A stretch of DNA of 64,000 bases, from assembly GCF_002874965.1 (NCBI RefSeq), contig NZ_CP025624.1, positions 3,100,001 through 3,164,000 of the forward strand. Reading direction: 5' to 3'. A model generated the notes under the pieces. It was given only the letters and a program-made list of their open reading frames with translations. It had not been told where the DNA came from and did no database searches. The stretch comes from Pseudomonas sp. NC02 (GTDB lineage: Bacteria > Pseudomonadota > Gammaproteobacteria > Pseudomonadales > Pseudomonadaceae). The position numbers were made by a program, and so were the translations under genes. This document shows positions 36,826-55,836 of this stretch, piece by piece (position 1 is the stretch's first letter; every line of letters begins with the position of its first letter).

Positions 36826-36912
36826 GCCCGAATGGCGAAACTGGTAGACGCATGGGACTTAAAATCCCCCGCTCGTAAGGGCGTGCCGGTTCGATTCCGG
36901 CTTCGGGCACCA
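36826..36912 (+). tRNA. tRNA-Leu(TAA)
   Basis: 87-nt class II tRNA: acceptor GCCCGAA/TTCGGGC, D-arm with GGTAGACGC, anticodon loop CTTAAAA with anticodon TAA, a long variable arm and T-loop GGTTCGATTCC, encoded CCA. The prophage integrase ends 80 bp downstream and faces it, so this gene is the probable attachment site. Confidence 0.97.
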
Positions 36913-36992
36913 TAATATTCAAGGGTTTGCGGGGTTTTAGGACCTGGCTGGCTCTTTGTGTTTTTCCGCAATATTCTTCTCCTTTCCGCAAT

Positions 36993-38024
36993 TCACTTCG
37001 TCGGCGTAACTTTTTTGCCGATACGTTTGCGGATGTAGTTCTCTGTCATCACCACGGTTGTGTGCCCAAGCTGATCTCTGGCTTGCAGAATATCTCCGCT
37101 TGATTCCGCCTTATCGGTACCAGCCTTTGCGCGCAGGTCCCGCATCTGAAAGTCTGCCTTTTTTACGCCGGCAGCTTCTCTCGCAGCATCAAATCTCCCC
37201 CGTAACATACTGCTAGTCATAGGCTGCCCGTTGTCCATTACGATGAGTTTACTGGACCGGATTTTATGGCTGTCTTTCCTGGCCAGTATTCGGTCGATCA
37301 CAACCTTCAACTCCCCAACGATTTCAATTCGTCGCTTGGCCTTGGTTTTTCCCTGCTGCACAGCAAGGCGATCCTCCCTGATATCGCGCTCATCCATTTT
37401 TAGGGTGTCAGCGATACGCTGACCTGTCAGGTAGAACAGATCGAGCGCGTCTTTTAGCGGCTGGTCTGCGTGCAAATACACCATCGCGAGCATTTCATCT
37501 TCGACGTAGATGTCACGTCCGCTTTCCTTATTGCCTTTAACACCGGCGCAGGGATTGGCCAAGGACGTGTAGCCGCTGGTCCTGGCGAAGTTCCAGATCG
37601 AGCTGAGCAATGCTTTCTCGCGATTTGCACGAACAGGTGCGGTCTTTCCTCGATGTCTCAAGTACTGGGCAACGTGCTGGGGCTCAATAGCTTCCAGCGG
37701 GGCGGGTGGGTCATTGAAGAAGGCAAGTAGCTGCTTCAGCTCTCTGGCGTTGTCTTTCTGCGTCGCTGGCGCTTTAGTTGGAACAACTTCCAGCATGTAT
37801 TTTTCAGCGACATAGGCGAAAGTCAGTACATCCTGCGCCATGGCCTGGGATACACGGCTTTTTTCGAGCTTTGCATACTCCAAAATTGCCAGCCCGTAGT
37901 CCTTGCCCAATGGTATTTCTTTGCGTGGCGTCCCGCCTGTGTCGTAAAGGTAATACGTCGTGTCGCCACGCTTCCTTTCGCGTAACCGGGGAATGCTCCC
38001 AGGCCGGGTTGGTTTTCGTCCCAT
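36993..38024 (-). CDS. Prophage tyrosine integrase
   Basis: 343 residues. N-terminal arm-binding and SAM-like core domains (about 1-150), then a catalytic domain with R in LTGQRIADT, R-x-x-R-like MRDLRAKAGT, LGHTT and the tyrosine in MTENYIRKRIG near the C-terminus. All catalytic residues appear present, unlike the remnant at 17296, to which it is related (shared PTK ending). It catalyses integration and excision at tRNA-Leu. It is the last gene of the leftward prophage operon, directly after the DUF4224 gene. Confidence 0.95.
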   Translation of the reverse strand: MGRKPTRPGSIPRLRERKRGDTTYYLYDTGGTPRKEIPLGKDYGLAILEYAKLEKSRVSQAMAQDVLTFAYVAEKYMLEVVPTKAPATQKDNARELKQLLAFFNDPPAPLEAIEPQHVAQYLRHRGKTAPVRANREKALLSSIWNFARTSGYTSLANPCAGVKGNKESGRDIYVEDEMLAMVYLHADQPLKDALDLFYLTGQRIADTLKMDERDIREDRLAVQQGKTKAKRRIEIVGELKVVIDRILARKDSHKIRSSKLIVMDNGQPMTSSMLRGRFDAAREAAGVKKADFQMRDLRAKAGTDKAESSGDILQARDQLGHTTVVMTENYIRKRIGKKVTPTK

Positions 38025-53316: not shown

Positions 53317-53345
53317 AATTTAGCCCCAAGCTAAAATATCGTCAA
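53317..53345 (-). promoter_or_regulatory. Leftward early promoter (PL-like)
   Basis: On the minus strand, TTGACG (53345-53340), a 17-bp spacer and TAAATT (53322-53317). The spacer and -10 are occupied by the first operator copy, so repressor binding would block RNA polymerase. Confidence 0.75.
53319..53335. promoter_or_regulatory. Prophage operator OL-a
   Basis: TTTAGC-CCCAA-GCTAAA: a perfect 6-bp inverted repeat with 5-bp spacer, one of six copies in the window. Confidence 0.85.
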
Positions 53346-53360
53346 TAGCTCAGAGCTAAA
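53344..53360. promoter_or_regulatory. Prophage operator OL-b
   Basis: AATAGC-TCAGA-GCTAAA: same pattern with two mismatches in the left arm. Centre lies 25 bp from OL-a. Confidence 0.75.
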
Positions 53361-53362
53361 TA

Positions 53363-53379
53363 TTTAGCGACAGGCGAAA
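53363..53379. promoter_or_regulatory. Prophage operator OL-c
   Basis: TTTAGC-GACAG-GCGAAA: one mismatch in the right arm. Centre lies 19 bp from OL-b. Confidence 0.75.
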
Positions 53380-53462
53380 TTATCGCGACCCGCCAGGTCT
53401 ATGACTGAGGTCCATAAGCGCTTTACGCGCCAGTTAGCAGTGAGCTATGATTTTTCCACTGG

Positions 53463-53478
53463 CTGTATGGATATACAG
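53463..53478 (+). promoter_or_regulatory. LexA (SOS) box
   Basis: CTGTATGGATATACAG matches CTG-N10-CAG with TA-rich arms. It lies 22 bp before the DUF1654-like gene. Confidence 0.85.
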
Positions 53479-53499
53479 CGTTCAGTCGGGGGAAATTTT

Positions 53500-53811
53500 A
53501 TGGCACAGAAGCAGGCGGCACTGGCAGCACAGCAGGAAATTAGTGGTATGGAGCGCCTTGCGCTACGCGTCTCATCGATGATCAATCACCCGGTCGCGCA
53601 GGCGCAGCGCTGGGTGACGATTCATCGTCTGGACACGGACGGGGATCGGGAGTGGGAAGAGGTGCTGAGCGTGATCGCTGACACCGACGAGCTTGAGTTG
53701 ACGCTCAATGACGACGGCAGCGTTACGGTGAGGTGGGAGCAGCAGGAGGTGGAGAAGGCAGGGAAGGGCGAGCCCACATTTGAGCCGGAAGAAGAGGTGG
53801 CGCCTTTTTAG
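53500..53811 (+). CDS. DUF1654-like SOS-regulated protein
   Basis: 103 residues from ATG 53500 (GGGGGA 6 bp upstream). The core GMERLALRVSSMINHPVAQ ... WVTIHRLDTDGDREWEEVL matches, by memory, the DUF1654 family confined largely to pseudomonads and their phages. The end is acidic. The LexA box just upstream makes it an SOS-induced gene, placed beside the prophage operators. An in-frame ATG at 53401 lies upstream of the box and is not used if the box is functional. It may act in DNA repair control or prophage induction. Confidence 0.75.
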   Translation: MAQKQAALAAQQEISGMERLALRVSSMINHPVAQAQRWVTIHRLDTDGDREWEEVLSVIADTDELELTLNDDGSVTVRWEQQEVEKAGKGEPTFEPEEEVAPF

Positions 53812-53823
53812 CGCGCAATAAAA

Positions 53824-53842
53824 AGCCCGCTTTGGGCGGGCT
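53824..53842. terminator. Bidirectional hairpin between convergent genes
   Basis: AGCCCGC/GCGGGCT stem with a TTTGG loop; A-rich on one side and T-containing on the other. Serves the DUF1654-like gene and the convergent coiled-coil gene. Confidence 0.65.
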
Positions 53843-53864
53843 TCAATTCAACGAGACTAAAGAT

Positions 53865-54488
53865 CTACGAGCCGGATAGTGTAAATACGTACCTCAGAGC
53901 GACTCCGAGCAATGCTGAAGCGATGGCTCCAATTACAATCGCTCCGCCCAAATACTTACCCATCGTAACCTTGATACCGTTGACATCCTCACCAACCTTC
54001 TTCGTATCTGCTTTGATGGAGCTTACGTCCTTTTCGATCCGGTCAAAACGCGATTCTGATATCTTTTCCAGCGCTTTATCGCGCTCTAACTGAGCCGCTA
54101 GAAAGCCTGAAAATCTTTCGGCTAGCGCTGCATCTCTCGCGATCTGTTCATTTCGAAACGATTCTTGTCTCAGGTCAAATTCACGTTTTAACTGCTCATC
54201 ACGCAAAGCAAGCTCTTTACGATATTCATCTGACCGCCTTTCGCCGTCCTTTTCCATGCGCTCTATGCGCTTATCCATCCGGTCTTCAATACTGGATAAG
54301 GTTGACCTTAGCTCGTCCCGCGTTATGTCGTTCATTTTCCGAGTATCACTCGTTACAGGTCTATTGTCATCAACAAGGTCTGCTGCCAGGGTGCTCGATT
54401 TTTGATTAATCCCCGGAAATCTAGTGCAGGCTTCGAAATGATTTTTCATATCATTCGCTGTTCCAAATTTGGTCGTTGCGCTACTCAT
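53865..54488 (-). CDS. Coiled-coil membrane-anchored protein, rexB-position
   Basis: 207 residues: an N-terminal variable part, a long charged coiled coil (about 55-165, MDKRIERMEKDGERRSDEYR and LKREFDLRQESFRNEQ) and a C-terminal transmembrane helix (about 182-203). A shorter start at residue 52 (MNDITRDELRS) is possible. It overlaps the zinc-ribbon gene by 8 bp and both follow the CI-like repressor in the same direction, so it should be made in the lysogen. A tail-anchored coiled coil could oligomerise or sense at the membrane. Function unknown. Confidence 0.65.
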   Translation of the reverse strand: MSSATTKFGTANDMKNHFEACTRFPGINQKSSTLAADLVDDNRPVTSDTRKMNDITRDELRSTLSSIEDRMDKRIERMEKDGERRSDEYRKELALRDEQLKREFDLRQESFRNEQIARDAALAERFSGFLAAQLERDKALEKISESRFDRIEKDVSSIKADTKKVGEDVNGIKVTMGKYLGGAIVIGAIASALLGVALRYVFTLSGS

Positions 54489-54846
54489 CGCTGGCTTCCA
54501 CAGCTGACGAGTTATCGTCGTCGATCAAATCTGAGTCAGGCCTTGGATTGTTTTCCACCCATTCGTGAACAGTTGAGGCCATGTGGGTGCGAAGATAGCC
54601 GCAACTGTTACAAAAATATCCAAAGGTGGACATGTAAAACATATCAGGTCGGTTTCGTACAGGCATACCTAGGCGAAGCGTTGGTCCGTCATCGTCAGGG
54701 CAAAGGATAGTCCAATCCTCTCCCTGACAAAGCGGGCAATTTTCATCCTTACCTGCTCCTTTTGCTACAAGGAATCTTGCAAAGTCCTTAGAATCAACAG
54801 CAAACATCGTGAGCCGCTTCGGCTTTGACTCGGGTGTATCGGTCAT
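54481..54846 (-). CDS. Zinc-ribbon protein, rexA-position
   Basis: 121 residues with CPLC (about 37-40) and CNSCGY (about 79-84) forming a zinc ribbon, and an acidic tail (DSDLIDDDNSS). The N-terminal DSKDFARFLVAKG resembles nothing I know. It starts 66 bp after the CI-like gene stop and overlaps the coiled-coil gene. Likely co-expressed with the repressor in lysogens. Confidence 0.65.
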   Translation of the reverse strand: MTDTPESKPKRLTMFAVDSKDFARFLVAKGAGKDENCPLCQGEDWTILCPDDDGPTLRLGMPVRNRPDMFYMSTFGYFCNSCGYLRTHMASTVHEWVENNPRPDSDLIDDDNSSAVEASDE

Positions 54847-54912: not shown

Positions 54913-55749
54913 CTATACCGGTTGTCCGTTCCATACGTAAAGCACCCGGGCCAGGATATGGGTGTCATCCACCCGGATGTCTTCGGGGTCGTGGTGCTTG
55001 TTGTCCGAAATCATTTTGAAGCGATCCTTGCCTTTCTTTTGCAGGCGCTTCACGTACAACATTTCGTCGTGGGAGAAGAGGTAGATGCCGTCCCCGGTGA
55101 ACTCCCGGATCGTGATGTCGACCAGTAGCGGGTCTCGATCCTTGATGGTTGGAGCCATCGACTGACCCCACCCGGTGATCATCTTGAGGTGGAAGTGCTC
55201 TTTGAAGGTGACACCTAGATCACGCAGGTGCTTGGGGCTGACCCTTATGTCCTGGAGCATTTCCGGATATTCGTGCGGGATCTGCCCGCCACCCATCGCC
55301 GCGCGCACATCGTAGTGCGCAATCCACACCTCATCGCCGACCTGGCCAGGGCGAGAGAAGTCGACAGTTATGACGTTGCTCGACTCGTCAGCGGCCGCAA
55401 TAATCCTGTCACGAGCTGTGCTCGTTAAACCTTTGACCTTCGAAAGCATCTGCTTTATCTGGTCCGCCGCTGTCTGTGCGGATGTCTCGTCTGCGTGATC
55501 GCTCGAAGTCAGCTCTTCAGCTGGAGTTATCGACTCACCTGGCGATATGGAGTCAAACCAACCTCTGGGCAGCCCCTCGATCGCCTCGATTCTCCGCGCT
55601 ACATCGTCTCCCAAATTCTTCGCTGTCTTGTCCGACAAAATCTGGCTCAGGTGCGCAGGCGCCATTCCCCAGCGCTCGGCGCACGCGCCTTTTCGCTGGT
55701 TTCCTATGAGGCTGATCAGTTGCTTTTTACGAATCGCATAAATATCCAT
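54913..55749 (-). CDS. CI-like prophage repressor (HTH-S24 peptidase)
   Basis: 278 residues from ATG 55749. Helix-turn-helix at about 8-60 (RKKQLISLIGNQRKGACAER ... HLSQILSDKT), a linker, and an S24 LexA/CI-like peptidase domain with S197 in GQSMAPTIKDRD and K234 in LYVKRLQ, the Ser-Lys dyad for RecA-stimulated self-cleavage. The ordinary Ala-Gly cleavage site is not obvious; the AAMGGG segment (about 150-155) is the candidate. It should bind the six TTTAGC-N5-GCTAAA operators. A TTG at 55794 lies inside an operator and is less likely as start; the ATG has no clear ribosome site, as with leaderless lambda cI. Confidence 0.88.
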   Translation of the reverse strand: MDIYAIRKKQLISLIGNQRKGACAERWGMAPAHLSQILSDKTAKNLGDDVARRIEAIEGLPRGWFDSISPGESITPAEELTSSDHADETSAQTAADQIKQMLSKVKGLTSTARDRIIAAADESSNVITVDFSRPGQVGDEVWIAHYDVRAAMGGGQIPHEYPEMLQDIRVSPKHLRDLGVTFKEHFHLKMITGWGQSMAPTIKDRDPLLVDITIREFTGDGIYLFSHDEMLYVKRLQKKGKDRFKMISDNKHHDPEDIRVDDTHILARVLYVWNGQPV

Positions 55750-55768: not shown

Positions 55769-55785
55769 TTTAGCTCAATGCTAAA
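55769..55785. promoter_or_regulatory. Prophage operator OR-a
   Basis: TTTAGC-TCAAT-GCTAAA, a perfect copy. On the minus strand it sits between TTGAGC and TAAACG with a 16-bp spacer, a candidate repressor-maintenance promoter just before ATG 55749. Confidence 0.85.
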
Positions 55786-55801
55786 TGTGCTCAAAGCTAA
55801 A
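55785..55801. promoter_or_regulatory. Prophage operator OR-b
   Basis: ATGTGC-TCAAA-GCTAAA: right arm perfect, left arm degenerate. It abuts OR-a and is probably the weakest site. Confidence 0.6.
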
Positions 55802-55807
55802 TATTCC

Positions 55808-55836
55808 TTGCTACGATATTAGCCATAAGCTAAATT
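55808..55836 (+). promoter_or_regulatory. Cro promoter (PR-like) with operator OR-c
   Basis: TTGCTA (55808-55813), a 17-bp spacer and TAAATT (55831-55836). Operator OR-c, ATTAGC-CATAA-GCTAAA (55818-55834), fills the spacer and overlaps the -10, exactly as at the leftward promoter. Confidence 0.75.

Follow-up and report, generated by a model that had tools for sequence, protein, structure and literature searches.

A candidate repressor-linked exclusion gene pair with partner-matched tails and a conserved intragenic promoter motif in Pseudomonas prophages

Downstream of the CI-like repressor gene in a prophage of Pseudomonas sp. NC02 lie two overlapping genes, one for a small zinc-ribbon protein (ZR) and one for a coiled-coil-type protein with a single predicted C-terminal membrane helix (CC). 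We regard this pair as a strong candidate for a defence system against other viruses; what can be read from the sequences is the gene order, the family, the location in a cargo slot, the linkage between partner and tail, and the conservation of a promoter motif at the DNA level. The last two are new here: CC genes are mosaics in which the N-terminal tail is linked to the small partner, and a promoter motif is conserved inside the gene. A literature search recognized no description of the ZR-CC pair or of its internal promoter motif.

Organization of the immunity region

The DNA analysed here, called the window below, is a stretch of 64,000 nucleotides that covers bases 3,100,001–3,164,000 of a 6.9-Mb single-contig genome. 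Its immunity region carries on the minus strand a row of genes in the order CI, ZR and CC, followed by a terminator-like hairpin, while a plus-strand DUF1654 gene converges on this row (Table 1). CI and ZR are separated by 66 nt, and ZR and CC overlap by 8 nt, in agreement with the initial annotation, which had described both genes as following CI in the same direction and overlapping each other. The longest open reading frame for CI has a TTG start at 55794, which falls within an OR-type operator. Rightward from OR there are a Cro-like gene and a CII-like gene, both assigned by family search, and then two more genes in the usual replication position, judged by location alone.

Table 1. Features of the immunity region (positions in the window)
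Feature	Position	Strand	Remarks
CI-like repressor	54913..55749	-	S24 peptidase domain (Pfam E 2.6e-18)
ZR, zinc-ribbon partner	54481..54846	-	121 aa; PHROG 4293 match
CC	53865..54488	-	207 aa; N-terminal tail, coiled-coil-type stalk, one predicted C-terminal membrane helix
CC variable tail	54336..54488	-	Residues 1–51; predicted helix 11–22; tends to go with partner type
-35-like hexamer of intragenic promoter motif	54365..54370	-	ATGACA
-10-like hexamer of intragenic promoter motif	54342..54347	-	GATACT; 17-nt spacer
Predicted short CC	53865..54335	-	156 aa; internal ATG at 54333–54335, 6 nt past the -10
Predicted C-terminal membrane helix of CC	53889..53957	-	About residues 178–200
Terminator-like hairpin	53823..53843	-	Closes the CI-ZR-CC gene row
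OL-type triplet of repressor-operator-like palindromes	53319..53379	n/a	
OR-type triplet of repressor-operator-like palindromes	55769..55834	n/a	
DUF1654 gene	53401..53811	+	PHROG 2707; Pfam E 4.9e-25; converging; far border of cargo slot

Two triplets of one 17-bp palindrome mark the predicted OL and OR. The sites are TTTAGCNNNNAGCTAAA-like, three in each triplet, and one of those at OR has 3 mismatches. A scan of the whole window for TTTAGCNNNNAGCTAAA on both strands, allowing up to 3 mismatches, gave 23 matches as against a mean of 9.9 in shuffled sequences, and 1 of 100 shuffles had as many.

The 63-nt stretch around the hairpin has a minimum free energy of -22.2 kcal/mol (z -3.05), and a T-rich run comes next on the minus strand; the output of the consensus terminator scan contained neither this hairpin nor any terminator-like site between CI and ZR. 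The initial annotation had the pair end at a hairpin before the leftward operators. There is a hairpin in that place, but the DUF1654 gene lies between it and the OL-type operators. A promoter-like site was found ahead of ZR (54896–54869) in the general promoter scan of the window, and no common promoter was seen by eye across the upstream regions of 29 zinc-type partner genes. Elsewhere in the window, a phage-type integrase gene (36996–38024) adjoins a tRNA-Leu gene, and this region (36826–38024) is likely to be the attachment side of the prophage.

ZR, CC and their relatives

The cysteines of ZR form the motif CPLC...CNSCG, of which C37, C40 and C79 are invariant and C82 is retained in at least 90% of 31 aligned relatives, so that the family has the two conserved cysteine pairs expected of a zinc ribbon. 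For CC, AlphaFold2 predicted a short helix (residues 11–22), a low-confidence stretch, and then a single helix (57–206) that takes in the hydrophobic C-terminal part (pLDDT 82.5, pTM 0.35). CC has one hydrophobic stretch, which is C-terminal and has its hydropathy peak at residues 176–180. Both products thus fit their first descriptions, as a zinc-ribbon protein and as a coiled-coil protein with a C-terminal membrane helix.

In searches of Pfam, PHROGs, NCBIfam and PADLOC, the sole accepted match for ZR was PHROG 4293, a family without assigned function that is matched at 1e-3 by 30 of the 31 aligned ZR-family proteins, and CC had no accepted match. At 1e-8 neither protein matched a known PADLOC defence family; ZR had no match up to E 10, and CC had weak coiled-coil-like matches, the best being LeoB (E 1.7e-4), along with RTasPolA, ZorA and DruC. 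Against the sequences of solved structures, ZR had weak matches to zinc ribbons and to other proteins (best E 0.15), and CC had weak ones that were mostly to coiled coils (best E 0.043); fold searches returned no match at E 0.001 or better for ZR (PDB and the viral library) or for CC (the viral library). Zinc ribbons from RNA polymerase subunits, from TFIIS and from NrdR are among these weak hits of ZR by sequence and fold.

Both open reading frames are under purifying selection and therefore behave as real genes. Comparison of loci L013 and L014 gave omega values of 0.14 for ZR and 0.05 for CC, and comparisons of the window with L011 and L012 gave pS of 0.75–0.87 against pN of 0.14–0.24. Single-sequence searches found 115 proteins that match CC and 8 that match ZR, the latter number rising to 25 with a ZR profile. 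All the relatives for which an organism is named come from Pseudomonas. Among 199 genomes of the genus Pseudomonas, including that of NC02, ZR had a match in three and CC in five. A tblastn search of 50,697 phage records with ZR, CC and two relatives of each as queries gave no match at E 0.01.

A small partner gene overlaps or adjoins CC upstream in 36 of 39 distinct CC genes; the exceptions are L028, where CC is at a contig end, and L009 and L115, where no credible partner was called. The partners, about 80–150 aa in size as called, are mostly zinc ribbons of several subtypes. Zinc-type partners account for 28 of 35, a share that may be too high because the partner picker favoured open reading frames with two CxxC motifs. 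Partners that lack the cysteines are of several kinds (L026/L030/L337; L025/L039/L211; L215/L279/L329) or single (e.g. L033, L188, L008 and L331), and no catalytic family was recognized among the partners searched. Judged by eye, L104 again resembles a partner of the L026 kind combined with another stalk. Coiled-coil-type proteins with a C-terminal membrane helix also occur beyond the CC family in the slot described below (L104:7069–7760, L041:6994–7651 and L055:8196–8615), and in L104 and L041 the gene comes after a small overlapping partner.

A cargo slot between CI and DUF1654

Loci fetched with CC, ZR, CI and CII as queries were reduced to 93 non-redundant CI loci, of which 72 have an opposite-strand DUF1654 gene within 6 kb and were taken as closed slots. 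Since the queries themselves included CC and ZR, the proportion of these slots that hold CC is no estimate of frequency. The initial annotation had proposed a survey of what occupies this place in related prophages, and the 72 slots, whose genes were called by a simple custom script and not by a standard gene finder, proved to hold widely different cargo (97 clusters) that includes known and candidate defence families. Four of them are empty, at 38–39 bp, and one slot of 538 bp has no called gene; ZR-CC accordingly belongs to the replaceable cargo between CI and DUF1654.

We took 79 cargo representatives, encoded on the CI strand and no shorter than 60 aa, with the ZR and CC clusters excluded, and compared them with 79 genes of matched length from other parts of these loci. 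At 1e-8 the cargo set matched 105 PADLOC models and the controls two, by one gene each. When 20 hand-picked cargo proteins were scanned singly against PADLOC, 11 had a match (7 of 10 and 4 of 10) and 9 had none; defence matches thus occur in at least 11 of 79 cargo representatives as against at most 2 of 79 controls. The matched models, some of which are candidates themselves, include HEC-04 (5e-219), beta (4e-156), PDC-M32A (1.5e-158), RmrA (9e-100) and PDC-S42 (8e-103). Pfam, with which only the cargo was scanned, added a HipA-like kinase, IrrE-type peptidases, DUF4411, YafO toxin, HSDR_N and AAA families. By the PADLOC and Pfam matches, the slot is a cargo site with many defence-type genes, which gives circumstantial support to a defence role for ZR-CC. 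Such a role would in turn mark the slot as a site in Pseudomonas prophages where further defences might be sought.

Several other regularities were seen in these slots. A 20-member cargo family (cluster 0) of about 63–130 aa, with the sequence '...LMKMCVLLEAQQQKLRGYADEVK...', starts within a few nucleotides of the CI stop in many slots (e.g. L055, L063, L066 and L105). A very similar leader (about GTGC.GGCTCAATTAYGGGAGGGAT...ATG) is found ahead of different genes in 16 sequences picked by protein motif (L041, L050, L053, L060, L066, L071, L106, L021, L203, L204, L114, L118, L124, L142, L144 and L149), as if a ribosome-binding-site leader had been re-used across genes; several of these genes lie at slot ends and encode small proteins of exported or membrane type. 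By eye, L013, L014, L021, L024, L029 and L037 have a common TTTGGCGCGGCGGGATGCT-like stretch between CI and the partner, which is perhaps the left border of the slot.

Mosaic structure of partner, tail and stalk

CC splits at M-N-D-I-T-R-E-E into a tail, which is 33–102 residues long as called in 35 loci, and the stalk with the membrane anchor that follow it. Sequence comparison suggests that the small partner tends to travel with the tail, and that stalk and anchor are swapped separately. In 46 dereplicated loci, the locus with the nearest partner was within the three closest tails in 29 cases and within the three closest stalks in 9; the discordant loci numbered 21 in favour of the tail versus 1 in favour of the stalk (sign test P 5e-6; as the sequences are related, this and the P values below overstate independence). 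Two smaller sets gave 21 versus 8 of 37 and 22 versus 8 of 35 by the same top-three measure. L028, which has no partner on its contig, and near-duplicates were left out of the linkage sets, as were L009 and L115 from the 35- and 46-locus sets and from the Mantel tests.

The same tendency is seen in 19 swap pairs, in which the partners are alike and the stalks are unlike: their median tail similarity is 0.29, compared with 0.10 in 436 pairs unlike in both. Examples are L034-L013 (partner similarity 0.58, tail 0.42, stalk 0.13), L037-L027 (0.72, 0.40 and 0.16, respectively) and L335-L106 (0.65, 0.24 and 0.15). Five of the 19 have tails at about background similarity (0.06–0.12), namely L337-L026, L337-L030, L340-L049, L034-L020 and L330-L013. 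Conversely, 34 pairs have a common stalk (>0.7) and dissimilar partners (<0.15), some of them both zinc ribbons. Mantel correlation with the partner was 0.35 for the tail (P 0.0002), 0.32 for the first 33 residues of the stalk (P 0.002), 0.25 for the next 33 (P 0.0002), 0.06 for the last 60 and 0.10 for the whole stalk. The length-matched stalk segments, used as a control, thus go partly against a linkage specific to the tail, and it is by the nearest-neighbour and swap measures alone that tail and stalk are told apart. The simplest reading is that the tail would be the docking site for the cognate partner. These natural partner-tail swaps would offer a set for asking how such systems recognize infection.

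A promoter motif inside the CC gene

At the junction of tail and stalk, 6 nt ahead of an internal ATG, CC genes contain a sigma-70-type motif, TGACA-N18-ATACT. The copy in the window is ATGACA-17-GATACT (54370–54342, minus strand); it was also picked up by the general promoter scan, which is weak evidence alone (4 sites found versus 2.1 expected). In a gapless alignment of 36 dereplicated CC genes out of 38, anchored on the internal ATG, the bases of TGACA at -34 to -30 are conserved in 29, 35, 35, 35 and 33 of the 36, and those of ATACT at -11 to -7 in 36, 34, 33, 32 and 35; variation is far greater in the 17-nt spacer and in most of the six positions that lead up to the ATG. Codon choice follows the motif. 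The Thr codon in the -10 element is ACT in 30 of 30 cases, compared with 22% in the remainder of these genes (P 3e-20), and the D/N/H/Y codon that precedes it has T as its third base in 34 of 35, compared with 49% (P 4e-10). The full motif is present in 27 of the 36 genes, and 2000 synonymous-codon shuffles gave a mean of 0.8 and a maximum of 6. The putative promoter motif is conserved at the DNA level across unlike tails.

The motif together with the ATG occurs once in the NC02 genome and in 42 of 205 loci (2.13 Mb, overlapping copies counted), always inside a CC gene. In 398 genomes of the genus Pseudomonas it was found in 15, at 13 places in CC-type genes, several with stalks barely related to the query, and at two unrelated places. 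A reversed control pattern was about as frequent (18 matches versus 15 true ones in the same genomes), so the number of matches is at chance level, and what tells is the location of 13 of the 15 at one junction. Among the matches listed (at least 120) from a scan of viral contigs, those in L211, L215 and L279 lie in CC genes, unlike the others that were read. In genomes from beyond the genus, the pattern matched 6 of 114 besides that of NC02.

These data suggest that the CC gene conceals a promoter. As its -10 element ends 6 nt before the ATG, the transcript is predicted to begin at or next to the AUG, yielding a leaderless mRNA for a tail-less CC. A conserved motif of this type is unusual in its own right, as it lies within a coding region at a domain junction and predicts a leaderless start. 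Its location at the site of tail/stalk exchange would also suit a block of homology for the recombination behind this exchange, or a site for a regulator involved in it, and such a role would be compatible with any of the functions discussed below. We consider it a minor possibility, since both the hexamer sequences and their spacing fit sigma-70, and homology alone should have kept the spacer too, which, like most of the 6 nt before the ATG, is far less conserved than the hexamers.

Proposed function and alternatives

We see an about even chance that prophages use ZR-CC as a two-protein module for phage exclusion, linked to the repressor, in which the partner acts on the membrane stalk via the tail. 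The repressor transcript would provide the lysogen with CI, ZR and the full-length CC. ZR, small and cytosolic, would act as a sensor or regulator and bind or occupy the N-terminal tail of CC, and CC would be an oligomeric rod with its C-terminus anchored in the inner membrane, the stalks assembling there and the membrane part being the common effector. Upon infection by another phage, the ZR-tail complex would be altered and CC would damage or de-energize the membrane, so that the infection is stopped. In this scheme, we infer ZR-tail binding, CC oligomerization, promoter activity, membrane damage and exclusion.

The layout is compatible with transcription of the pair together with CI in the lysogen. 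The pair may not be simply co-transcribed with CI, because the conserved promoter-like motif inside CC should also yield a tail-less membrane protein. The inner promoter would add CC subunits that ZR can neither hold nor signal through, setting the ratio of signalling to silent subunits. These tail-less subunits could raise the threshold or shield the phage's own lytic growth, comparable to the RexA:RexB ratio discussed in the accessible text of PMC12894663. We tentatively put forward, as possible, a general architecture in which interchangeable small sensors with their own tails are mounted on a common stalk and a promoter at the plug point produces a leaderless mRNA for a sensor-blind stalk. 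If true, this would be a novel architecture of prophage immunity, with the sensor-blind stalk as a built-in threshold for, or self-protection against, the membrane effector. An exclusion function would enlarge the small group of two-protein systems of the Rex-like type, which numbers five in the accessible text of PMC12894663, by a family that has gone unrecognized.

The main rival explanation reverses these roles. As in the model for Butters gp30/gp31 summarized in the accessible text of PMC12894663, the variable small partner might be a cytosolic toxin or antiviral effector that CC merely tethers to the membrane by its tail until infection sets it free. The partner is indeed the exchangeable part, of unlike kinds, on a generic anchor, but partners are small (~80–150 aa) and those searched revealed no catalytic family, and we consider reversed roles unlikely.

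It is quite unlikely that the pair is of the toxin-antitoxin or holin/antiholin type and serves to maintain the prophage or to time lysis, with the tail-less CC as its second product. The overlap of the two small genes, the coiled coil of the membrane protein and the conservation of a second start would all be at home in such a pair (holins can have dual starts), and CC has a sub-threshold match to PHROG 1193, 'hemolysin' (E 0.047). Against this stand the location beside CI and the variation of the slot cargo between prophages, which indicates that the pair is dispensable. A lysogeny-switch regulator or host-fitness gene without an exclusion role, with ZR as a membrane-tethered zinc-ribbon transcription-type factor as its weak matches to RNA polymerase subunit, TFIIS and NrdR zinc ribbons might suggest, is very unlikely, because 4 of 72 slots are empty and most hold other genes, so that the switch works without ZR-CC.

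Comparison with known systems

The exclusion module proposed for ZR-CC was first suggested by analogy with lambda rexA-rexB. The likeness in layout stands: in both cases, two genes directly downstream of cI and on the same strand, between OR and OL, encode a cytosolic (for ZR, cytosolic-type) protein and a membrane protein, and the defence-rich slot fits the analogy. The likeness in logic is incomplete, as CC has one predicted C-terminal anchor whereas RexB has four predicted helices, so that CC is not a polytopic second product, and as the pair comes from a mosaic family whose partners can be swapped. No relation between the proteins was detected, in line with the initial annotation, which saw no resemblance of either product to RexA or RexB: hhalign gave 0.2% probability for the ZR alignment versus lambda RexA and 1.4% for the CC alignment versus lambda RexB, each a comparison of low sensitivity to a single Rex sequence. 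The partner-matched tail and the promoter motif inside the membrane-protein gene itself also distinguish ZR-CC from lambda Rex. Lambda does have a promoter-like site, TTGCTA-18-TATACT, inside the 3' end of rexA and upstream of rexB, which we take to be the lit promoter; the promoter scan of lambda found 2 sites versus 3.6 expected by chance.

XhlA-type coiled-coil membrane proteins share with CC a coiled coil followed by a C-terminal membrane helix; however, the 'hemolysin' match of CC is too weak to count, and CC is located beside CI.

A parallel in the host genus is RexABpp (PP_5643/PP_5644) of the P. putida prophage P1, which the accessible text of PMC12894663 describes as a RexAB-type defence pair downstream of a CI-like gene. 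According to the same text, deleting either gene sensitizes the cell, activation damages membranes, and the RexA:RexB ratio matters. As described there, RexABpp differs from ZR-CC in that RexApp binds DNA and is related to RexA, four membrane helices are predicted for RexBpp, and two genes intervene after the CI-like gene. A layout reminiscent of RexABpp, with a protein of ~350 aa followed by a four-helix membrane protein, was seen in L073 (6957–8612) and in the L109 slot; the ~350-aa protein of L073 had no PDB sequence match and an hhalign probability of 0.7% versus lambda RexA (five-sequence alignment, Neff 1.1).

Sbash gp30/gp31, CarolAnn gp44/gp43 and Butters gp30/gp31, which we compared by their descriptions in the accessible text of PMC12894663, are likewise prophage-encoded two-protein Rex-like systems, but they belong to phages of Mycobacterium and Gordonia. 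Taken together, the Rex-like reading of ZR-CC is partly supported: it holds in the sense that the pair would work like Rex, not that it is a member of the Rex family.
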